Of a DNA stretch of 35,100 nt, positions 5,068 through 35,100 are shown piece by piece. A program made the position numbers and the translations under genes. Below the pieces are notes generated by a model. That model was not told the DNA's origin, made no database searches, and saw nothing but the letters and a program-made list of their open reading frames with translations. The DNA lies in the NCBI GenBank assembly GCA_003024175.1, contig MDYQ01000265.1, forward strand, positions 1 to 35,100, given 5' to 3'. Within the stretch, counting starts at the first letter, position 1. Each line of letters begins with the position of its first letter. The stretch is from Planoprotostelium fungivorum. Its lineage: Eukaryota > Evosea > Variosea > Cavosteliida > Cavosteliaceae.

Positions 5068-5188
5068 ACAAACCATTTTATATATCGGCTCTCCGTCCAT
5101 CACCCTCCATCACGATGGATGACTCTATCTACATGTGCCGTCGACTCTTCACAGAGGACGCTGATTCTTTCCAGGTATAAATAACAGT

Positions 5189-6221
5189 CTAGACGGCGAC
5201 CTCCCATTGATCCGTAAAGCAGATGGCATGATTGACCGGCGATGCCAGAGACTCTGTGAAGTCAAAGACCTTCTCTTCGATGTAGCTGGACAGTTCATGA
5301 TAGTGACAGATCGGTTGGATCTCATACTTGATGTCCTCGCACACTGGCAGTGAGTCATCCTCTTTAAAGTCCTCATCTGTAAGAGGTGAGAAGGTGCATG
5401 CGGAAGGGATGACTCACTCAGGTCGAAAGAGAAGTCGTCTGGAAAGAAGAGGCTCTCTGTTGCTGGGAGGTAGAGATCTGGATCGGCCTTGACGACACAT
5501 ACAGACGTCTTCTCAACGACAACCTTGGCCATGCGTGGCTTGGTAGATATCTCTGCCTTCCTCTTTCTCTTGATCCTCTTCTTCTCCATCTCTTCATATG
5601 CCGGCTCTTCATCGGAGGTCGTGTCTAACATGGAGTCCATCATGGGAGGAGGCACGTGGATCGTGTTGCTTGAGCGGTAGATATTCCCGGAGCTGTTGAC
5701 CTTCCTCTTTAATGTCGAATTCCAATGGTTCTTGACTGCATTAGAAGGCCTCCCTTGCAGCATCTTGGCGATGTCGGCCCACTTGTTGCCTATCGAGTTG
5801 TGTGCAGAGATAATGATACTGTCTTCCTGCGCCGTCCAGGGATTCTTGTTGATCTCCGGGTCCAGATGGTTGTACCAGCGCTCTCTACATTGTTTTCCGA
5901 TCCTTCCACTGAGTCGATTCGCAATGGTGGACCAGTTCTTAGGACCTAGATCACGAACCAATTGGGAGAGCATCTCATCTTCCTGAATGATGGTGAGGAG
6001 AGAAGGCAGGTATGGGCTCACCTCTTTCGTCCACGCTCCCTTTACGAGGTGCTGTTCTATTCCCTTCGTCCACGCTCCCTTGTGTCTACCTTCCATCATG
6101 TCTGTGAACTGTCTCCAGCCTTTCTGTCTCTTGGCCGAAGGCTCATGTTTCTGCGCGAATCAATCTCCATGCTGCCTCCTCCTCGTCGTCCCACCTCTTC
6201 ATTGTCTCCTCGATTCTTCAT
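5189..6221 (-). CDS. MYB transcription factor (R2R3, with an R1-like remnant)
   Basis: Four exons are read on the minus strand: 6221-6195, 6150-6022, 5982-5418 and 5376-5189, giving 302 residues. The core is two complete MYB repeats. R2 is KGAWTKEEDE...[28 protein letters not shown]3 is [11 protein letters not shown]...[25 protein letters not shown]. Both have the regular Trp spacing and the recognition helices of the animal c-MYB/plant 3R-MYB type. Before R2 lies [12 protein letters not shown], like the second half of an R1 repeat, followed by a second KGAWTK copy. A basic stretch (KKRIKRKRK) after R3 is a likely nuclear signal, and the tail is acidic. It probably acts in the nucleus on cell-cycle genes, by analogy with 3R-MYBs. 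The start is uncertain: ATGs at 6202 and 6099 are alternatives, and the small first exon is the weakest part. Confidence 0.85.
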
Positions 6222-9616: not shown

Positions 9617-10723
9617 TCAAGAGCCTTCTACTGAACCATTCTTCCATTTCAACTCTAAGACATCAAGCAAGGCCATAGTGAAGAAGGATTGGATGATATA
9701 TTGCACGAGCCTGGGTTGCCATCCGTTCCAAAGGACCTGTCTCAATTGAATCATCCTCTACATCATCGTGTCATGCGAAGGCGATCGTGGAGAAGAAAGG
9801 ATCGAAATGGAAGAGATTGAAACGAATTCAAGTACAGAAGAGAGGAAGAATATGAGAGACAAGATGAGAGACAAGGTGAGATGAACACCTTCCATCCGTT
9901 TTGTGATACGAGATATCTCATCGTGCTGATGATACCCCTCTGTACGTAATGTTCTTTCTGGACGGTTGTCTTCACGATGTCGAACGGCATGTTCAACATG
10001 GTGTTGAAGAGACCGACGGGGACACTGCAGATCATGAGAGTCTTGATGCTCAATTCTTTCTCTCCAGATATCTTCCTAGCGAATTTCTTCGTCTGCCATC
10101 GTCAACGATGATGTGATGTCTAACGTCACCTGATGATCTGCAAATAAGAAGGAAACCCAACTAACGAGACCCCTCGTATAGACGGCTCCCAGACCTCTAA
10201 AGAGCTCTACACGGAGTGATCTCTTGTCTCCACCTGCGCCCTCCATGAATGATCGAAGACCATGCTTGAGTTGATTCGACGTCATCAGAAAGACTTTCAG
10301 ACGTTCGAGTGGACAGACAAAGAATGATTCTAGAGAGGCGATGGCAATACCAGTCAATATTCTCTCTGTAGTTCCTCCCGCAGCATATGGTGCTGGAACG
10401 ATTTTGGAGAAGAGCGATGGAAATGACAACATCATCGGCCAACGGTACGCTTGCTGTGTCACGTTAGCTTTCATCTTAAGACATTCAATCATTACCTTGC
10501 CAGCGATCCGAAGACTGTTTGGAATGGCACCCGAGTAGAAGCCGACCAAACCTTTGGCTTGATAGATCTCGTTCGCCGCCACTCTTGGTGAACGGAGGTG
10601 GGGAAATGCTTGCATGTATGTCTTCACACAATCGAATGGATGTTCGATGGGGAGGGCCACCAGACCACGTGACGCACCCAAAATGGATGCTTCGATGTAT
10701 CTTCTGAATGTCCCCTCCGGCAT
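9617..10723 (-). CDS. Mitochondrial carrier family transporter
   Basis: Four exons are read on the minus strand: 10723-10496, 10453-10130, 10092-9889 and 9736-9617, giving 291 residues, close to the usual 300. The family's threefold signature P-x-D/E-x-x-K/R appears three times at regular spacing: PFDCVK at residues 29-34, PLERLK at 124-129 and PFDIVK at 220-225. Each follows a hydrophobic odd-numbered helix. Such proteins are six-helix exchangers of the inner mitochondrial membrane. PFDIVKTTVQ and the two PFD motifs recall the amino-acid/keto-acid carriers, but the substrate cannot be assigned. The start at 10723 is chosen because the family begins shortly before the first helix. The open frame continues upstream, but only across the ankyrin gene's 5' end. 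The gene is head-to-head with the ankyrin gene (66 bases apart) and tail-to-tail with NIT2. Confidence 0.9.
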
Positions 10724-10789
10724 GTTAATGATCCACTGATGTGATGTGATGTGATATGTCAGATCGTTCTGTGACACACAACAAAAAAG
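10724..10789. promoter_or_regulatory. 66-bp bidirectional promoter region
   Basis: This is the whole space between the start codons of the carrier (minus) and ankyrin (plus) genes. It contains a run of TGATG/TGTGATG units (10738-10757) and ends in an A-rich stretch just before the ankyrin ATG. A shared core promoter is inferred from the small gap. Confidence 0.45.
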
Positions 10790-12169
10790 ATGACGGAGAA
10801 CGAGGGCGATGTAACGAAAAACAAGACGATTCATAGTGCAGCGAAGAGTGGCCACATCTCTATTGTTCAGAAATTCATCGAGAATGGAGCTGACGTCAAC
10901 GCAATCGATGACAATGGGTGAATCACCTCGTGAGACATCTCTGACCATTGCGTTAGACACTCTCCTCTTATTCTAGCCGCTGCGTCAGACCGCGATGAAG
11001 CCGTGCAGCTGCTGTTGAAATGTGGAGCTGACGTCAATCTCGTGACGAATGGACAGACGGCTCTATTGGCTGCTTCTGCTCTCGGTTCCGATCGTTCAGT
11101 GCAGGTGAGATCTTCGATCCATCATTCTCATTGTGAATCGGTCACAGAGGCTGCTGGCCGGGGGAGCTGACGTTCACTTCTGTGATCCGAGTAAAGAGAC
11201 ACCACTCTTGTCTGCATGCAGGGGGGACCATTCCATCATCGTCAAACTACTGTCCTCTTATGGCTCCAATTACGACGCGAGAGACGCGGAAGGCTGCACC
11301 CCACTGATCATCTGTGCCAAGATGGAACACATTGCATCTGCACGAATACTTCTCAAATTCAATTTGGACATCGAGGCCAGAGATGACACTCATCTCACAG
11401 CCATCTTACACGCATGCCATCACGATGACACCGAGGTTCTTAGACTCTCTCCCATCTTCTCTCATGCATCATCCAGATGGTCCACCTGCTACTCTCTCAC
11501 AAAGCCAACCCAGAAGCGAGAGACCGAGACGGAAATACTTGTCTGCTCATCGCTTGTAAAGAGAAGAGGAGAGACATTGTGAAACTGCTGGTTGCCCATG
11601 GAGCTCATGTAGAGCCGGCCGACGAGGAGGGCAGGACTCCTCTCATCTTCTCGTGCATCCACGGAGAAGACGAAATCACAGAATTACTCCTCTTTGAAGG
11701 TTCGGACACAGATCATCGCGATACATCTCGAAGATGTGCCCTGCAACATGCGGTAGAGAACGACAGGGTCTCTTCTGTTTGTGTGCTGCTACAATATGGA
11801 GCGAGCCCTCATGTGTTTGGACCGAAGGCGAGGACGCCACTGTTCGAAGCCGTGAAGAGAAAGAACATGAAGATCACGATGATGTTGATCGAAGATGGAG
11901 CCGATGTGTTTGCAAGGGATGAAGAAGGAAAGACCATCTTATTTGAGGCTTGTGAGAGTGGAGACCTCTTTATGGTGGAGACGATCTGGAGGAAGATGGC
12001 AGCAGCGGGTGATGCGGAATCACATGAGACGATCGATCGGTATGGAAAGACACCCTTGGATTACGTTAGGGAGAATCTAAGAGAAGAGGTAAGTCATCCT
12101 TCACGTCTAAACATATTGAGTTGGTGTCAGATCAATGCGAGGATATCACAATGGAAAGAGGAAACGTGA
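10790..12169 (+). CDS. Ankyrin-repeat protein
   Basis: Five exons (10790-10917, 10957-11104, 11148-11435, 11477-12088, 12131-12169) join to 404 residues made almost wholly of ankyrin repeats. About eleven units can be counted by the pattern G.TPL..A......IV..LL..GA....D: for example NKTIHSAAKSGHISIVQKFIENGADVNA, TPLLSACRGDHSIIVKLL, TPLIICAKMEHIASARILL, CLLIACKEKRRDIVKLLVAHGAHV and TPLFEAVKRKNMKITMMLIEDGADV. There is no signal peptide, membrane segment or catalytic domain. It is likely a cytosolic or nuclear binding scaffold; the partner is unknown. Introns are 38-43 nt and split repeats at different phases. It starts 66 bases from the divergent carrier gene. Confidence 0.92.
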
Positions 12170-15436: not shown

Positions 15437-16450
15437 ATGCTGTTTGACCCTTCCGGAAGAATCGATTTATCCGGCTCCACCCTGACCGACGCAGAATGCG
15501 CCACCGCCCTATCTGCGAATGCGAAAGATCTGCTCCGCCTGTACCAAGGCCGTTACACTGCGAGTGAGCTCGGGTTCGATCCCCCACCCTCGGACTCACT
15601 TTTTTTTCACAGGAGGCGGGAAGATGACACAGCTGCCGGATCCAAACGCAAAGGTGGTTCCTCTATTCGAGCCCGTGAAGCCTGTCTTTGAAGTGCCATC
15701 GGAAGAGAAAGTATCACAGCCGAAGGCCAACCATCATGATGCAGACATGCAGAAGAAGGTGATCGCGATGATGATGGCGATGATGATCGTGACGACGAGT
15801 AAGGTCATCACGTTGGCAGAATGGACGGTGACCAATGTGGACGAAGCGAAGGCCATACTGGTCAATCATAAGAGGGAGCTGAACAACCCTTACCTCCCAG
15901 TGGATCAGATCCTCGAACTTCACGACAGCATCACTGCGGCATTTCAAGTGAGATACATCACATCATCTGAAAAGAGAAATTTGCATCACAAAACGAGAGA
16001 AAAGAGATTTGAATCACAAAGCGAAAGAAAAGAAATTTGCATCACAAAGCGAAAGAAAAGAAATTTGCATCACAAAGCGAAAGAAAAGAAATTTGCATCA
16101 CAAAGCGAAAGAAAAGAAATTTGCATCACAAAACGAGAGAAAAGAAATTCGCATCACAAATGGAACTGAAGAGATAAATTATAATCCTATGAGAGAATAA
16201 ATGAGGACAGGAACTGGCATCGAAGAGGGATCAACTGCCTCGCAGTCGAGAGCCAGAGACAGTACAATTAGACGACAGCATGACAGAAGTGGAGAAGAAG
16301 AGGAAGATCACGGAGAATCACATCTACAACACGAACATCATCCTCCACTCCATTGGAAGACACGCAGCCACCTTGGATCAAGCTTCTCAATTGGAGGACG
16401 TGTTGGTGTTGGTCAAGACGGTCAGAGCTGTGCGTCAGCATATCAAATAG
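15437..16450 (+). CDS. Hypothetical protein with helical, charged C-terminal half
   Basis: Four exons (15437-15563, 15613-15758, 15804-15947, 16211-16450) join to 218 residues. The N-terminal half is Pro-rich (LPDPNAKVVPLFEPVKPVFEVP). The C-terminal half is charged and probably helical or coiled-coil (ILELHDSITAAFQELASKR, MTEVEKKRKITENHIYN, SQLEDVLVLVKTVRAVRQHIK). I do not recognise the family. A small subunit of a larger nuclear or cytoskeletal complex would fit the shape, but nothing specific supports that. The 45-nt second intron is a multiple of three with no stop, so it could be retained. The third intron (15948-16210) carries a minisatellite. It converges on the GH13 gene with 91 bases between the stops. 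Confidence 0.6.
15972..16163 (+). repeat. 28-bp minisatellite inside an intron
   Basis: About seven tandem copies of a 28-base unit containing GAAATTTGCATCAC followed by AAAGCGAAAGAAAA, with scattered substitutions (GAAATTCGC, AAACGAGAG). It lies wholly inside the 263-nt third intron of the gene at 15437. It makes this one of the longest introns in the window. Confidence 0.85.
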
Positions 16451-24500: not shown

Positions 24501-27500
24501 GCCACTGACGGTCGCCTACACTACGATCAGACCCCAGGCACCAGTATCCGACGGAATTTCCAATACGGTGAGGGTGAAGTGATGACGTATGATGACGTCA
24601 TCATCAGTTCGTGATGCCACTGGCCGTGAACACGAATACGAAGGTGGCGATATCGATGGGTGGTATCTACTGTCCTCCCTTGTATATACAGCAGAGAGAT
24701 GATGATGCAGCCACGTTGGAGATTGTATCGGGCAGACTGAACGATCCCATCATGCTGGGACAACTTTTGGCCAACGACACGATCTCCGTTGCTCTGAAGA
24801 ACAGCTCGGGTGAGATGTTCATTTCTCTCACTCCCACCATGATGATGATTGTGTCGCGATCATCATGACATGACGATGATGATCGTGTCGCGATCATCAT
24901 GACATGACGATGATGATCGTGTCGCGATCATCATGACATGACGATGATCATCGTCGCGATCATCATCATGACTTGACGATGATCATCGTCGCGATCATCA
25001 TGACATGACGATGATCATCGCGTCGCCATCATCACGTGAATCTAACGAATGTAGGCTCTCCCCTTGTCGGTCGGTTTCTCACCGCACGAATCATGTCCAA
25101 AGAAGGTTCTAACTCGACCGCAATTGTGGGTAACCTGTACGATGACATCTACATCACCATGGTTCTCACGTCGGAGGACAAGAGAAAGACTCTGCTCTCT
25201 ACCTTCAGCTCAGAAACAGATACCAACGGTATCGCCAATTTTCCGAAATTATCCGTGCTGATGGCTCAGCGAGGTGATCACATCATCACATCATCATCAC
25301 ATCATCATCACATCATCACATCATCACATCATCACATCATCACATCATCACACATCATCCATTGACATCGATCAGGAACATATCACGTCGAATTTGTTTA
25401 CAGTCGTTACTATCAAGACGACAATCCCATCACCGTTGCCACTTCAGAGTTTTACATCGGTCAGACGGTCAAATTGAACGTAGACCTGACGAGCACCAAA
25501 GTGAGCATGTACACTCCTCTGGAGGCTGTAAAGGTTTCTGCATTGGTGAGTTTTATTCGAGTGAAAGAGATTGAGATGGGTAGGCTGTGGATGAGTCGGG
25601 AGGGAGTGTGACGTTGGAACATCCGATCTATTCGATGGATATGGTGCCGACGGACAGTCAGTACAATCCTACTTGGGGGATCGTCAGTGTGCCCAAGGTC
25701 AGTCATAACGTTATTGTATCGATTCTCGTTCATACATCATCTATTCACAATCCCATTCATCATCCATTCATCATTCTTATATCATCCTTTCATCATCATC
25801 CATTAACAGTCATCATTGAGAAATGATCGTCCAATCATCATAAAAATCTGACGGATACAGATGCACACCACAACATCACCCACAGGGGCTCAACTTTGGG
25901 GTGTTCCACCACCATCCATCGGTCTCTCCGATTACATCACCCTCAGCGTACGTGATATCTCCTCGAAATCTCGCTGAAACGAACAGTTGGCCTTGGCCAC
26001 TCGCAATATCGTTGGCAACCAGATCCACGCTGATGCTGTTCCAGATCTGACCGACTATCTGACTCGACTCTTGAACGGTTCGACCAAGATCGACCAGTGA
26101 GTGAAGTCACGTGACGTCATCGTCTTAATTCCTGCAGGTACTTGGTGTCCGCTCTCGCTTCACAGTCTTCTCCTTTCACTTTTGTCGGCAGCTACCAATC
26201 GAGCCCGACCGACGACAAGAAGGGAAACCTATCCGATTACGCTTCACTCATCCGCAGTAAGAACGTAACGCAGCAAGTGACCGCACTTCGGTCGATATCC
26301 AACGCCGTGGGAGAGGGCTTGATCGACGTCGTTCAGTATCTCAGTGAAGTCACACCGAAAACTTGTCGATTTTTCATCTCTGCACTCGGTGGAACGAGCG
26401 AAGAATTGAACGCCGTCAGCATGTGAGAGATTTCACGTTACGTCGATGACGTCATCGTGACGTGTGATGACGCCATGCAGTCCATTCGTTCCTACGAACG
26501 AAGCGAAGACGATCAGTGTGGTACAGAGTCCTCCGCTGCAGATCAGAGTGGGTAGCAGTTTCTCTACTTCTGTTCTCCTCTTGGCTGAGGATGGATCGCC
26601 GGTGCCTTCGGTTGCCGTGACGGTGTCGATTCAGGGACAGAAGAATACCGTATCGTCCATCATACGATCACAGTCTCTGGGTGAGTGTGATATCATTGCA
26701 CGTGACCACATCATCACATCATCATCGTCACATCACACCATCACATCATCATCACATCGTCATAGCTCATCCTACACAGCGAATGCATCGGTGTCAGACT
26801 TGATATCAAGTATAAAGAACAAGAGAGATATCACCCCGGTGGCCACGCTCGATCCACTGCAGACGACGGCCATGACCAACAAGAAGGGAATTGCACAGTT
26901 CAATCTCGTAGTCAAGACCGGATTGGAAGGTGTGACGAAGTAGTATGACGTATGATGACGTCATCAAGGTAGTTATACCTTCTTGTATCAGACTTCCACG
27001 AAGAGTAAGGTCTCCTTCAGAAGTGATCCCGTATCACTGAGCAACAACGTGGCCAGCGTGAGTGAAATCTCGTCGAAAACTCGCAGGCTGATCTATAAAT
27101 AGATCACCATCGTGAGACAACCTGCCGTGGCGAGCGGTGATTACGTCACGATATCGGCCGATGTAGATCACGATGTGAACTCACTGGTACAACCTGTTCT
27201 ATTGGTGCGAGACAACCACGGCAACCCCATCGCCGACAAATTCGTCGTCATCACTTCCAATCCCGCGGGTCTACGCGCTAGTTACGTACGTCATTACGTC
27301 CTCGAAATTTCACTCAGATTTCACAGAATCACTCGGTGCGTACAAATTCCACGGGCCATTACACCTTCAACGATCTACGCTTCTTATCCGGAGGAAACAA
27401 CAATTTCAGTCTCACCTTCCAAGTGGATGGATTGTCATCCAACACTTCGAATTCCTTCATCGTCATCAACAAAGAGCAACCCGATCTGAGTCAATTGAGT

Positions 27501-29807: not shown

Positions 29808-30922
29808 ATAAACAGCAAAAGTATCCTAATTGTGATTTGATGTCAGCGTACTTCTACTGATTGCTATTACACAGTTCACAATTTTGACCACAAAGCCTGA
29901 TTGTAAGAGATATACAATAAACGCAAAAGTCAACCAGAAAAAATGATGAAAGAAACGGAAACATGATAAGGAACTTCAGCATGTCAGGATCATAGACTTC
30001 TGAGAGACTCTTCTACATGAGTCAAAAGGAACAAACTCTGACAGTCTACAACAAAGTTGGTCCATCTGTATCCATGTGTTTACACATGGATAAATCTCTT
30101 AAGCCATTATCACACTTGATTGAAAAATTGGTTTGTACATTGAATATTGGGGAGGGGGGGTGACTGAGTTTCCTGTTTCTTCATGCGCTTGATATGCTGC
30201 TTTTTGTTATGACGCTATGTTGTAGAGAAGGAATATTGACGACAAAAGGAATTGATTTAACGGTCTACAATTGTATTGTGTAATAAAAGGGGATTGTTCA
30301 AAGCCCATCCCCAAAAGAAGAGGTCTTGAACTTATACCATCCAACTAGTCCATCCTTGTGAATCCTTTACCCTGTTATCAAGCGTGAGATCATCCATCTC
30401 TAACAATCTTTGAACCTGTCTCCTTGATATTATATCATACATCTTCCACTAGAGGAAGAAAGAGGGAAAAGGGAGAAAGAGCATTGTCTCGAAAGAGAAG
30501 GGGTCAGCAGTGTCTCGTTGACAGATCATCAGACAACATATCATCTTATCCATCACTTTGGGGAGAGAGAAAGCGGGTGGTGTCAGATTGGGATTGGAAG
30601 GGTTCCACTACGGACTGCCATCTAGTGATTGCACATTGAGCCCATTAGAACATCATAATTGACAGTATCATTGTCAGACTTATTCAGATAAATAATCTAT
30701 GCCAATTGAGTCGTTAATTGCTGCTTGTGTGTAAGAGTTAGACTCACGTCAGAGGCGGATTCCACGATAGAAATGGACTAGAAAAGGTTCCTGACTTCTT
30801 CTTTGGCGAAGAGGCCTTGAATGGTTTATTTATGACAAAGTTGTGTGTCGTTTGGAGATATCTCTTTCCAATATTTTGGTCTACAACTCGGAATCACAAA
30901 TCGATTCTACGCTTCCTTACAT
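29808..30922. other. Gene-poor stretch before the chromosome end
   Basis: No supported gene. AATAAA at 29916-29921 is a possible poly(A) signal for the STRA6-like gene. A 9-bp inverted repeat (TCCATGTGT/ACACATGGA, loop TT) sits at 30071-30090. Composition shifts to AT-rich and the GATCATC word typical of the gene region disappears. The right part may contain the 3' LTR of the adjoining fossil element, whose outer boundary I cannot see. Confidence 0.4.
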
Positions 30923-31249
30923 AGTCCCCCTCAATTAGTGATGCAGAGTTCTCTTTCGTCTCTTGGTCTTCTCCTGTGTAGATTTAGAATGGCGCAGGTA
31001 ATCTTTGAGAGCGTCTTTACAGTGGCCTGTATCTGTGATCCAATCTTCATTGTTCTTTGGGTCAAGGTCATAACCCTGCCACTTAACAAGATATTCTGTG
31101 TACTTGTGTTTGCAACCTCGCTGTCAAAAATCCACAATACGTTCCACGACATATTCCTCGTTATTCTCAATCATCACTGGCTGTGAAGGAGGATCCTTCC
31201 GCCCGTTGAAAGAGTTGGCATAGCACGGGGTGAGAAGACTAGTATGAAA
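30923..31249 (-). mobile_element. Fossil Ty3/gypsy chromovirus, integrase C-terminus with chromodomain
   Basis: On the minus strand the sequence shows the end of a chromoviral integrase. FHTSLLTPCY matches the 'vFHvSlLrPy' motif. A Pro-containing linker with EYVVERIVDF follows, and then the chromodomain core KYTEYLVKWQGYD. A purine-rich tract (minus-strand GAGGGGGAC) directly follows the coding end, as expected before a 3' LTR. Only this tail is present. The 5' side is cut by the internal telomere tract at 31250. The copy is broken, with the truncation plus at least one internal defect. It looks moderately old, since the protein motifs are still readable. Confidence 0.75.
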
Positions 31250-31290
31250 TAGGGTTTAGGGTTTAGATTTTAGGGTTTAGGGTTTAGGGT
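31250..31290 (+). repeat. Interstitial telomeric repeat
   Basis: Five to six TTTAGGG units with one variant (TTTAGATT), in the same orientation as the terminal telomere 3.65 kb to the right. It joins the chromovirus fossil directly on the left and the recombinase-bearing block on the right. Confidence 0.93.
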
Positions 31291-31339
31291 CGTCAAGTGC
31301 TCTGATCAGCTCTATGACTGGAGCTACTGTCAATCACAA

Positions 31340-31384
31340 TATATCATTCAATAGATCTCGTCAAGAGGTGTTGAATGACATATA
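31340..31384. repeat. Inverted repeat near the left end of the element
   Basis: ATATATCATTCAA at 31340-31352 faces TTGAATGACATATA at 31371-31384, an 8-bp perfect core stem (TCATTCAA/TTGAATGA) with an extended AT-rich base. It lies 50 bases inside the left telomere junction. Confidence 0.5.
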
Positions 31385-31445
31385 AATGTTGTGCCAACTA
31401 TGTCGTATAGTGGATATATAGCACTCGCAATGGTATTCCTCTTTT

Positions 31446-31806
31446 GACCCCCGTCAGGGGGTCCTGTTACAATGTCTCCACAATGATTCCACCATATGAT
31501 GACCACTTTGACCCCCTTCAGGGGGTCCTGTTTGAAGAAGACAATCACCAAGTGAACATAAGTCCATTGTGACCTCCGTCAATAGGTCCTGCCCCATTTT
31601 CAGTCCTTCCCCCATTGACCCCCGTCAGGGGGTCCTGTTTGAAGTCTAATCATCACACTTGAGTGGACTCTGCTCTCATACCAAGTGTGAGTCCATTGAT
31701 ATCACCACTTCATCTATCCTTTTTGACCCCCGTCAGGGGGTCCTGCCTCATACACGGTGACAAATGCCACTCATTCTATATCCCCTTTGACCCCCGTCAG
31801 GGGGTC
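31446..31806. repeat. Array of six GC-rich hairpin units
   Basis: Each unit is GACCCCC-GTCA-GGGGGTC, a 7-bp inverted repeat with a 4-base loop, usually flanked as TTT...CTG. Units lie at 31446-31463, 31510-31527 (loop TTCA), 31571-31588 (degenerate), 31617-31634, 31725-31742 and 31789-31806. Start-to-start spacing is 64, 61, 46, 108 and 64 bases, so most are about 62 apart, with one missing or shifted. The spacers are AT-rich and only loosely alike, while the hairpins are nearly identical, which suggests selection on the hairpin. The array begins 77 bases past the stop codon of the recombinase gene. Possible roles are recombinase binding sites, RNA hairpins in the 3' untranslated region, or a terminator. 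Confidence 0.85.
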
Positions 31807-31882
31807 ATGTATGTCATTGGTCAACACTTGTACAAAATTGAGACACTCTGATGTTGATGATGATGATTACTTTATCAAAGTT

Positions 31883-34675
31883 CTATTCCTTTCTAGACTT
31901 CTTTCTCTTGGCAATCTTGCTCTTGAGACCCCTGGTGGATGCACTCTTCTTCACAGGAGTATACTTGGGCGCCTTCTTGGTCCTCTTCCTCTTCTTGGAC
32001 TCAGATACTCTTGGTGCTCTGACTCTAGTAATCTTCTCGCCAGGGTGGGGATTCTGGGCAATCCACTCCTCTTGATCCAATTCCTCCAAGTCGGAAAGCT
32101 CCTCTTCATATATCTTGTTGTCCTCTTCCTCATACTCCTCCAAGGCATCAGGATCTACACCAAATTGCTCTTCCATCTGAGCCACTGAAGGCATGACCAA
32201 GGCAAAGAGGTCTTGTAACATGTCCCTCTGAGTGGATTCAACAGGATGAGTGTCAGCCACTATCTCCTGTTGAACTGATCTGTATATGATCAGTACAAGA
32301 TGTATTGACCACTCACCTCATCTTGTTGGTACCAGTGTCTCTCACATAGAAGTCTCTGAACATCCTCTCAGTGGTGTTGATGAGAAGGCAGTAGTCCGCC
32401 ACTTCAATTGGAGTGCCATCCCTCTTGGCCCAACCTTGAAAGACATAAGTGCTGAAGGTCCTTCTCAGAGTGGCAAATGTGGCATTCTCTGCCTCTGGGC
32501 AGTATGTCCTCACAAATCTGACCAAGAGAGGGAGGACACTCTTGGGAATGCAACCATCACCCTTGGAGTTGATCCTGCATCCATCAACACTTGACACTTG
32601 AACATCACTCACCACATGTGTAAGTCTGCCTTGCTTCTCAACTGTGCCACTTCTACCTCAGGTCTCTGACCCTTGTAAGCTGCCTGCCACGCCTGGAATG
32701 CTTTCCTCTTGTCACTGCTCATCAAGGCAGGCCTACCATACTTGATGAAGAAGAGCCACATCTGAGCCACAGAAGGAGGAAGAGGGACACAGGAGCCTAG
32801 CACTCTATCTGTCTTCTCTCCAGTGACAATGACATGCCAACCATTGATCCTGTTGTAGCGGATGCTGTCAAACAATTGTCTAGTGACAAATTGTGCCCTC
32901 TGTCCACCTACCACCACTGTGGACATCAGTATGATAATGTATGGAATGTTCTCACCTGATAACATGTACACAAATGCATCTTGGAGTCTGACGGCCATTG
33001 GACGGGATAACTTCTCATGATCTTCTTTCTCACTTGTTTGTACATAGTGTGTTGCTCTTCTGAAGATCTGAACTGATGAGAAAGTGAAATCTGCACATCT
33101 TTCACCTTGTACACTTTGAAGATGAGAACTCTGATGTTGTTCTTGGATAGCCACTGTTTGTTCTCCTTCATATCAGATACACTCCTTCCGTAGATACTGG
33201 TGGATCCTGCCATGGCTGTTGCAAAGTTCTTTGCCTGCAGTAGTAGTCTGATGGTCGTCTCACTCTTATTGACCTCTTCATCAGAAGGAGATGGGAGAAC
33301 TGATATGATCCCTCTGATCATCTGCACACTTGAGATGAGATATCCATCACACTCTCACCTCCTTGATACCAGCCATCACATTTCTCATTGTTCCCCACTT
33401 GTGAGTGCCCAACTCAGTGGCCAAGTACTTCCATAGCCAGATCCAGGCCTTGACAAAATCCACGTCTAGCATGGACTTGTAAGTGAACTTTGACTTGGGC
33501 AGTAGTATGTGATGAAGTCTTGCCATCTGACGCAGGTAGGTCTTGTTGTAGGTCACTATGTTGTATGCTCTAGCAGCAAAAGTGGATTCATTCAAGATGT
33601 CTTGACGGTGTGTATGTGCATCCTGGTGAAATCAAAAATGATATCCTCAGTGCACTCACCTTTTGTCTCATCAGTCTAGCCTTAGTAGTTGGATTGACCT
33701 CTGCCATATCAGCCGAAGGTCTTGCAGTATCTGTCTGCCTGTTTGTGACTGGAACTGCTGCATTGATCTTCTCATAGAAGACATCTCTATTGATCTGAGT
33801 TTGATAGATTATGATATCTCACCTGAACACTGGAGTAGTGGTAGGATCAAAAGTTGGATGGCCCTCAAAGACAAGAGTTTCCTCAATCTCCCTTGCTAAC
33901 TTCTTCATGTCCTTCCTCCACTCTTTCTTGACAGATTGATCAGAGTGCTCATATGCCTTCTCAATCAATGATGTGACTTGAAATCTAGAAGTTGAAGCTC
34001 TTTCACGGGTATGCGCCTACATGCTCAGAATGAATTTGTGAATCAGCACTCACTTTTCTCCCGTCATCTTCCTCTTCTTCTTCACTCTCTTCTTCACTCT
34101 CTTCTCTTTCCTCTTCACTCTCTTCTCTCTCTTCCTCACTCTCTTCTCTCTCTTCCTCACTCTCTTCTCCGTCCATCATGTGAGAGATCTCCTACTGATG
34201 ATGAGGATGACACTTCATCATCACTCACCTTCTGCTCAACAACACTGCTGACCCTCACTGCCCAAGTGACAAAGTTCCTAAGCTGTTGCCATCAGTACAA
34301 CCACAGTGATACTCTCACCTCTCTAAGCTCCTTGTCATTGAGGTCAATCTCAGTCTCTCCATCTTCTTCCTTGCCCAAGTTGTTGTCACTGATGACTTGT
34401 TCTCTCAGCTCAGTCTCCCTCTCTTCAATTCTTCTGATGGCAAGTTGAACAGCCTGATGTGATCAGACTTGAACATATGACTGGCTCACCCTCATCCTGT
34501 CTATGGAAGACATCCTTCCTGGATTGTCAAACTTGGAGTGTCCTGCCATGGTGATGTTCTGGTCCTGTTGGTGGTTGTCCTGTGGCGCCTGTGCTGTGTT
34601 GGTGTCTGTTGAAAGTGATTCACCAAGTGTGGAACTCAAATCCTTCAGAAGCTTCTGAAGCTTCCAAGGTTCCAC
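31883..34675 (-). CDS. Tyrosine recombinase, 794 residues, 12 exons
   Basis: Exons on the minus strand: 34675-34490, 34453-34319, 34282-34229, 34191-34054, 34016-33823, 33786-33660, 33622-33359, 33321-33106, 33067-32956, 32916-32613, 32574-32317, 32279-31883. All eleven introns are 36-39 nt, and the join is open to the end. A Glu-rich segment (EESEEERE repeats, about residues 130-165) precedes a helical region. The catalytic domain follows: GGQRAQF with Arg482, VTGEKT with Lys510, FATLRRTFST with Arg614, and TTERMFRDFYVR with the likely nucleophile Tyr653. The 171-residue Arg-to-Tyr spacing suits the family. The His usually found three before the second Arg is Ala here, and the His/Trp before Tyr is not obvious, so activity is likely but not proven. 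The tail is acidic and then Lys/Arg-rich, like a nuclear signal. It probably cuts and joins DNA to move the element. Confidence 0.72.
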
Positions 34676-34699
34676 AACTTCCTAGGAATTCTATCATTT

Positions 34700-34770
34700 C
34701 TGAGGATTACAAACCTTCCATGGGATTACATAGCATCCCGTGGATTTACAAACCTTCCCATGGTCTACAA
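34700..34770. repeat. Imperfect direct repeat upstream of the recombinase gene
   Basis: GGATTACAAACCTTCCATGG and GGATTTACAAACCTTCCCATGG lie about 38 bases apart, with a third weaker GGGATTACATAG copy between them. They lie 25-100 bases upstream of the recombinase start codon, so they could be promoter elements or binding sites of the element's right end. Confidence 0.5.
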
Positions 34771-34943
34771 ACTCACACTTGGATATTTTTCACAAGTCCC
34801 CATCCTGCTCCTATCTCATTGCCACTCATGGTAACTTCCCCAACCTCTCCACAGACCAACTGCCATATCATGGCAGATTGATGACAGCTTTCTGACACTT
34901 TCACATGAAATTTTTCTCAATTTTCTCTCAATTTTCTTTGACT

Positions 34944-35100
34944 AAGGGTTTAGGGTTTTAGGGTTTAGGGGGTTAGGGTTTAGGGTTTAGGGTTTAGGGT
35001 TTAGGGTTTAGGGTTTAGGGTTTAGGGTTTAGGGTTTGGGGGTTTAGGGTTTAGGGTTTAGGGTTTAGGGTTTAGGGTTTAGGGTTTAGGGTTTAGGGTT
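34944..35100 (+). repeat. Terminal telomere, (TTTAGGG)n
   Basis: About 21 units of the Arabidopsis-type repeat running to the end of the window. Variants occur near the inner edge (TTTTAGGG, TTTAGGGGG, TTAGGG) and one TTTGGGGG block lies near 35036. The G-rich strand runs 5' to 3' toward the end, as expected for a right chromosome terminus. Confidence 0.97.

Follow-up and report, generated by a model that had tools for sequence, protein, structure and literature searches.

The stretch analysed here, referred to as the window, is the whole of contig C220 (MDYQ01000265.1, exactly 35,100 bases) of the genome assembly GCA_003024175.1 of the amoebozoan Planoprotostelium fungivorum. It ends in a block in which an element body of 3656 bases (3.66 kb, positions 31290-34945) is flanked by two tracts of the telomere repeat TTTAGGG, both in the same orientation. 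Such tracts gave 0 matches in 100 shuffles, and the G-strand of the repeat runs outward to the end of the contig, just as it would on a genuine chromosome end. A first-pass annotation of this DNA had described a block between TTTAGGG repeats of one orientation, and this arrangement is confirmed, with the tracts at 31250-31289 and 34946-35100. The single intact gene that it reported is likewise present, but its modelled length is 765 rather than 794 residues, and the recombinase identity assigned to it is supported by no profile or sequence search. The features of the block are as follows.

30205-31249, no strand: proximal flank of dispersed repeat pieces, including an unbroken copy of the sequence to which a related element on contig C40 is attached (breakpoint after 31111)
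31250-31289, plus strand: inner TTTAGGG tract, 40 nt, read as the telomere-like 3' tail of the element plus a few additional repeats
31290-34945, minus strand: body of the element, assigned to family A, with its 3' end at 31290, where TTTAGGG directly abuts TCGTCAAGTGC
31290-31406, minus strand: 3'-terminal domain, beyond the stretch that is 87% identical with a relative on contig C66
31446-31806: hairpin array, five perfect GACCCCC[G/T]TCAGGGGGTC starting at 31446, 31510, 31617, 31725 and 31789
31883-34549, minus strand: single gene, 765 amino acids in 11 exons with ten introns of 36-38 nt, putative tyrosine recombinase (motif level only)
32317-33067, minus strand: exons 9-10, the core that is conserved in both family A and family B, with GGQR, EK..RV.GS.VPLP, R.F..Y and the tyrosine of Y.R..G
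34550-34945, minus strand: 5' leader of the window copy, absent from every other copy
34946-35100, plus strand: outer TTTAGGG array, reaching the contig end and taken to be chromosome-end telomere added onto a truncated element

The gene is predicted to read without a stop over its 765 codons once the ten GT-AG introns are spliced out. These begin with GTGAG in nine cases and GTGAAA in one, all ten end in AG, and the last is backed by the NCBI gene prediction for the C66 copy (PROFUN_02090, partial). The hairpins sit in a row downstream of the stop codon, and a search of the 36.9-Mb genome for exact matches to their motif gave 18, all within these elements (C3, C66, C220, C329 and C438) and all in one orientation, with 0 matches for the reversed control. 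The 5' leader is not known to be the natural 5' end of the element, and the outer junction (34945/34946) was found in this copy only.

Comparison of the body with the genome gave 63 matches, 52 of which are confined to a single acidic coding stretch (query 766-897) and do not count as copies; the remaining 11 lie on C220, C66, C3, C329, C438, C293, C114, C84 and C248. The 60 bases that begin at the inner junction are present seven times (C329, C220, C3, C293, C114, C84 and C248), each time preceded by TTTAGGG repeats, and the proximal flanks of these seven family A copies are mutually unrelated. An assembly chimera at the inner junction was considered and rejected, the same base being joined on seven contigs with unrelated flanks. 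Several copies abutting TTTAGGG at one internal base, as anticipated by the first-pass annotation, are thus found on seven contigs for family A and on 11 for the family D described below, and the element is not a single-copy sequence. The distal ends of family A vary, lying 58 bases from the junction on C293, about 436 on C3 and 3656 on C220, while the C114, C84 and C248 copies run off the contig end after 45-47 bases and the C329 copy shows an internal deletion between hairpins followed by an assembly gap. The relative on C66 is 87% identical and has a different 3' end (family G); it stops about 1.38 kb from its junction and meets its own telomere tract about 120 nt past the shared stretch. 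On C220, C66 and C438 the 3'-terminal domains are alike in length (about 104-120 nt) and unlike in sequence, each finishing at its tract. Every copy except that of the window is truncated or runs off its contig.

Family D was first met past the family A fragment on C3. Its 3' end recurs in 11 occurrences on 11 contigs, and it can be traced in the assembly only over its last 900 bases or so. All 18 copies in families A and D have their 3' end inward and their body facing whichever contig end is nearer, which is at most 6.8 kb away (median 0.7 kb). Closeness to contig ends could be explained by contig breaks at repeats; the constant orientation is not explained in this way. Elements also stand in arrays, A then D on C3, D then E on C40 and C188, and D then F on C450, C111 and C138, with D cut at a different point in each D-E and D-F junction. 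Where readable, distal ends are capped by TTTAGGG or by the next element. Ten of 13 distal junctions open with at least GGG, or six of eight after removal of the five that are the tail of a next element; a GGG start is expected where telomerase heals a bare end. One of these eight arrays (C329) caps gag-like sequence rather than an element. Family B has a telomere-joined 3' end of its own; its copies on C101 and C110 are internal to the contigs and have broken frames. A partial, broken B-type copy on C343 has no telomere tract in its locus. Family E, seen on C101 at 40057-41205, has a 17-nt telomere tail at three of three junctions and no clear open frame in the C101 copy. Around 3219-3345 of C20 a telomere tract lies beside N with the same sequence on both sides, which looks like an assembly gap artefact.

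The comparison of inner-tract length covered 29 junctions, drawn from families A, B, D, E, F, G and H. The tract is 13-19 nt in 21 of them, ten of these having exactly 17 nt, and 4 nt at one junction (F on C138). Called tracts may be too long by one or two bases that match by chance. Two further F-like junctions, recognised by eye on C292 and C3, lie outside the 29. Because these tracts are mostly 13-19 nt long and adjoin non-telomeric DNA, the common inner tract of 16-17 nt is probably the tail of the element itself, with only the outer tract representing host telomere. That very short tracts are scarce tends to favour a tail with a function. For the MoTeR arrays of the blast fungus, stable interstitial tracts are reported to hold at most two repeats (PMC7367193).

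The DNA to which the elements are joined was analysed using 21 flanks, 17 of which were long enough for comparison with the loci read; four D flanks shorter than 26 nt, including that on C40, were dropped. Two of the 17, those on C329 and C114, were informative. On C329 the family A copy interrupts a repeat, intact copies of which, on C329 itself and on C327, carry on beyond the break. On C114 the flank directly before the telomere tract is a fold-back of itself. This fold-back palindrome (about 59174-59223) is of a kind that a broken end copying itself before capping might leave. The D flank on C40 equals window positions 30727-31111 at 96% identity and then passes into telomere sequence after TGTGTTT, whereas the window continues with other sequence, so that D on C40 breaks a dispersed repeat. 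The flank of the window copy (30205-31249) is itself a repeat mosaic with 54 genome matches, the window included, six of which, on five contigs, reach the last base before the inner tract. At three sites (C329, C114 and C40), the break lies in ordinary, non-telomeric DNA.

Families A and B share invariant residues along a 400-residue core that includes GGQR, EK..RV.GS.VPLP and a late tyrosine, the B core (alignment rows assembled from broken copies) being 37-38% identical to A. The R.F..Y and tyrosine parts of this core are present in D too, and a D fragment aligns with the A/B C-terminus at an hhalign E of 7.6e-5, a score reached by none of 60 shuffles, one of the three profile rows being a composite of two B copies. 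By sequence comparison, one protein is common to families A, B and D. This protein is under purifying selection: over 648 sites shared by the C220 and C66 copies, 27.2 synonymous and 26.8 non-synonymous changes correspond to dS 0.234, dN 0.054 and dN/dS 0.23, an estimate for a single copy pair and the last third of the gene. The D copies are too similar to one another for a useful dN/dS.

The tyrosine-recombinase motif, consisting of R, K, an HxxR-type pair, a later His/Trp and Y, was used to assess the identity of the protein. The order R, K, R-R, Y in the protein resembles this motif, but the HxxR histidine and the later His/Trp are absent, and two of three B-type copies (C101 and C343) do not keep the leading arginine of the R-R pair. 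Searches of Pfam, NCBIfam, PHROGs and PDB with the protein returned nothing relevant, and the integrase profile PF00589 had no match in the genome at E up to 1. Alignment by hhalign to six E. coli recombinases gave a non-significant profile E of 0.27, and XerD alone gave 0.029 as compared with 0.17 for the best of ten decoys. With a set of 85 sequences (79 Xer-like loci and the six from E. coli), the score was matched by 5 of 60 permuted alignments for the whole protein and 3 of 60 for the core, and the best alignment was in a sensible register at the box-I arginine and the VPL strand. Homologues of the single protein (residues 230-680) were absent at E 0.01 under a length filter that leaves out short fragments such as PROFUN_02090, the sole match of a three-row profile among 5.8 billion proteins at E up to 0.1 was this same partial C66 protein of the host, and no homologues were found in viral contigs. 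Judged by its motifs, the protein is somewhat more likely than not to be a tyrosine recombinase.

Reverse transcriptases (RTs) were located through PF00078, which matches the genome 43 times; those inspected by eye look Ty3-like and LINE-like, and 30 of the 43 loci were retrieved. At these loci neither the LINE-like RTs nor any other RT was linked to an element copy. The window copy, which may lack part of its 5' end, contains no RT/RNase H frame, and no Penelope-type RT is present in the copies read. On C31 (1-2316) a Ty3-like RT gene lies about 1.8 kb from the telomere array at the contig start and reads away from the telomere, and two other RTs near telomere tracts stand beside an assembly gap on C20 and beside N on C359. 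The host genome encodes a telomerase (PF12009, E 1.4e-14). In Rfam searches no hammerhead ribozyme was found at the 3' ends of the elements. The stretch ATATCTCYRYTATG, or a near-identical one, is present in four of five aligned 3' ends, family A departing from it, and the words GATCTA and CTACAA are shared by the 3' ends of different families nearer the end than ATATCTCYRYTATG. Shared 3'-end stretches may mark a common RNA structure outside Rfam.

The fixed 3' end, the short tract, the variable 5' truncation, the capping, the single orientation, the shared and selected protein and the presence of a host telomerase all support attachment to DNA ends, and on balance we lean towards reading the window block as one copy of a multi-family set of mobile elements that attach, 3' end first, to chromosome ends and broken ends. 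This fits better than the insertion into a telomere proposed in the first-pass annotation, since the inner tracts are short, tail-like (mostly 13-19 nt) and follow non-telomeric DNA. The proposed status of a tyrosine-recombinase DNA element is not established either, as the recombinase call is made at motif level only and the 5' truncations look like those of end-attached retroelements. As the best account we infer that an enzyme acting in trans copies RNA of the element onto the 3' end of a DNA molecule. The element transcript would end in about two CCCTAAA units (CCCTAAACCC), which would pair with a 3' DNA end rich in G or GT, and an RT acting in trans, either host telomerase or a genomic LINE, would copy the transcript onto the chromosome. 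An early stop of copying would lead to 5' truncation, after which telomerase would heal the new end. Possible substrates of the protein, which may be a divergent tyrosine recombinase, are the RNA-protein complex, a circular DNA form and the ends. A more specific version, in which the elements are copied by host telomerase itself, is doubtful on present evidence: their RNA would end in a template like that of telomerase RNA (about CCTAAACCCTAAACCC), and a bare or broken end would be extended with read-through into the body.

Several observations weigh against end attachment by RNA copying. The strongest point against a plain mRNA route is that C220 and C66, the copies with well-readable introns, both retain them; spliced mRNA was thus not the template, and the copies were made either on an unspliced template or through DNA. 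No RT was found within any A, B or D copy read, no full-length element is known, and an RT of the elements' own may lie further 5'. Rfam searches of the 3' ends revealed neither a ribozyme nor another known RNA fold, the window having no match at gathering score and relaxed thresholds yielding only weak, unrelated ones, and the five aligned 3' ends show no convincing common fold. Seven of the 29 inner tracts are longer (23-40 nt), that of the window copy being the longest at 40 nt, and by analogy with MoTeR short inner tracts can also arise by loss from longer, unstable ones (PMC7367193). The family B copies on C101 and C110 are internal and not at contig ends; they look like internalised relics.

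As an alternative, the block would be passive subtelomeric DNA. Ends that have eroded or broken and carry a few TTTAGGG units would invade short telomere tracts lying interstitially at the ends of other chromosomes, break-induced replication would copy the donor and telomerase would heal aborted copies. This would account for the fixed junction, the orientation, the retained introns and the near identity of copies, such events are documented in MoTeR arrays (PMC7367193), and the GGG start at six of the eight distal arrays not directly before another element is as expected of telomerase healing. We nevertheless regard it as unlikely, given that the inner tracts are mostly 13-19 nt, that the F-D join on C138 occurs at a 4-nt AGGG, too short for a homology search, and that the D-F and D-E junctions differ each time, unlike copies of one donor. 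Passive DNA would also not be expected to have a shared protein under purifying selection or separate fixed 3' ends in several families.

Integration of a circular element at TTTAGGG by a Crypton-like tyrosine recombinase, with later erosion and healing of the distal sequence, appears less likely still. The retained introns are expected of a DNA element, the window copy abuts TTTAGGG at both ends, and the resemblance of the motifs, the sensible register of the best profile alignment and the lead of XerD over the decoy all point in this direction. That profile score, however, lies within the null distribution, motif residues are missing as described above, and attachment points can be non-telomeric; distal ends differ wherever readable, with no second fixed end seen. 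It is least probable, and in our view very unlikely, that the block is the 3' fragment of a far larger terminon-like or TATE-like retroelement whose RT lies further 5' and has been lost from all assembled copies. All copies but that of the window are truncated or off the contig, D being followed over only about 900 bases, and in rotifers cloned units of about 6 kb proved to be 3' fragments of elements of up to 40 kb (PMC6431247). Against this, none of the RTs at the 30 loci retrieved is joined to an A, B or D copy, and those near telomere tracts are the cases on C31, C20 and C359.

Several known systems resemble the amoeba elements in part. Penelope-like elements retain introns, and the terminons and other endonuclease-deficient members (Athena, Coprina) are alike in their fixed 3' end with a telomere stretch, capped 5' truncation and head-to-tail arrays. 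The amoeba elements differ in that no Penelope-type RT or hammerhead was found, the common gene is a putative recombinase and the host is amoebozoan. In terminons, telomere repeats are reported to truncate the 5' end and to be present in reverse complement at the 3' end; the elements are arranged head to tail and carry their own RT and hammerhead (PMC6431247). The telomeric non-LTR retrotransposons MoTeR (PMC7367193), SART/TRAS and HeT-A (listed in PMC10088271) share the telomere location, truncated copies and short interstitial tracts. The amoeba elements differ from these in having another protein and no RT in the copies read. HeT-A, too, is not known to have an RT of its own. Cryptons are single-gene elements with introns and a tyrosine recombinase, and the amoeba element is similar in its single intron-containing gene for a putative tyrosine recombinase; it shows no sign of a second fixed end or of recombinase-driven integration, and has its 5' leader in one copy only. 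In TERC-ITS, telomerase RNA is copied into double-strand breaks beside telomere repeats (PMC2246262). This copying of an RNA with a telomere template into broken DNA is a precedent for the proposed route, although the amoeba case would use the RNA of a protein-coding element instead of telomerase RNA.

Telomere-attached elements are a known kind, and although the first-pass annotation knew of no well-described tyrosine-recombinase DNA element that targets telomeres, TATE of Leishmania braziliensis has been described as a telomere-associated tyrosine-recombinase element located at GGG^TTA of the telomere repeat (PMC6681497). The amoeba elements are alike in a putative tyrosine recombinase and a telomere location next to GGG; TATE, however, has an RT/RNase H frame (ORF3; PMC6681497), whereas the window copy has only a hairpin-bearing 3' region of 0.6 kb after the gene and about 0.4 kb before it. 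A search of the open-licence literature, mostly at the level of titles and abstracts, showed no account of these elements or of a telomere-attached element with this type of gene as its only known one.

The remainder of the window contains host-like genes at 5149-6099, 10076-10960, 11477-12169 and 26464-26943, with products that include Myb repeats, a mitochondrial carrier, ankyrin repeats and, below its cut-off, a match to macroglobulin MG4. Tandem repeats are located at 15975-16160 (28 bases, 6.6 copies) and 24841-25034 (34 bases, 5.7 copies).

To our knowledge, known telomere-attached mobile elements all carry or borrow a recognised RT, and such elements bear on the origin of telomerase and on the survival of chromosome ends without it. 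At least three families in this one amoeba share a protein that is not an RT; they appear to attach by a tail resembling the telomere repeat and are found on broken DNA outside telomeres as well. Should host telomerase be what copies the elements, a protein-coding parasite with a recombinase-like protein as its only gene would be using telomerase as its RT while healing broken chromosomes, and the system would make it testable whether telomerase can become a transposition enzyme.

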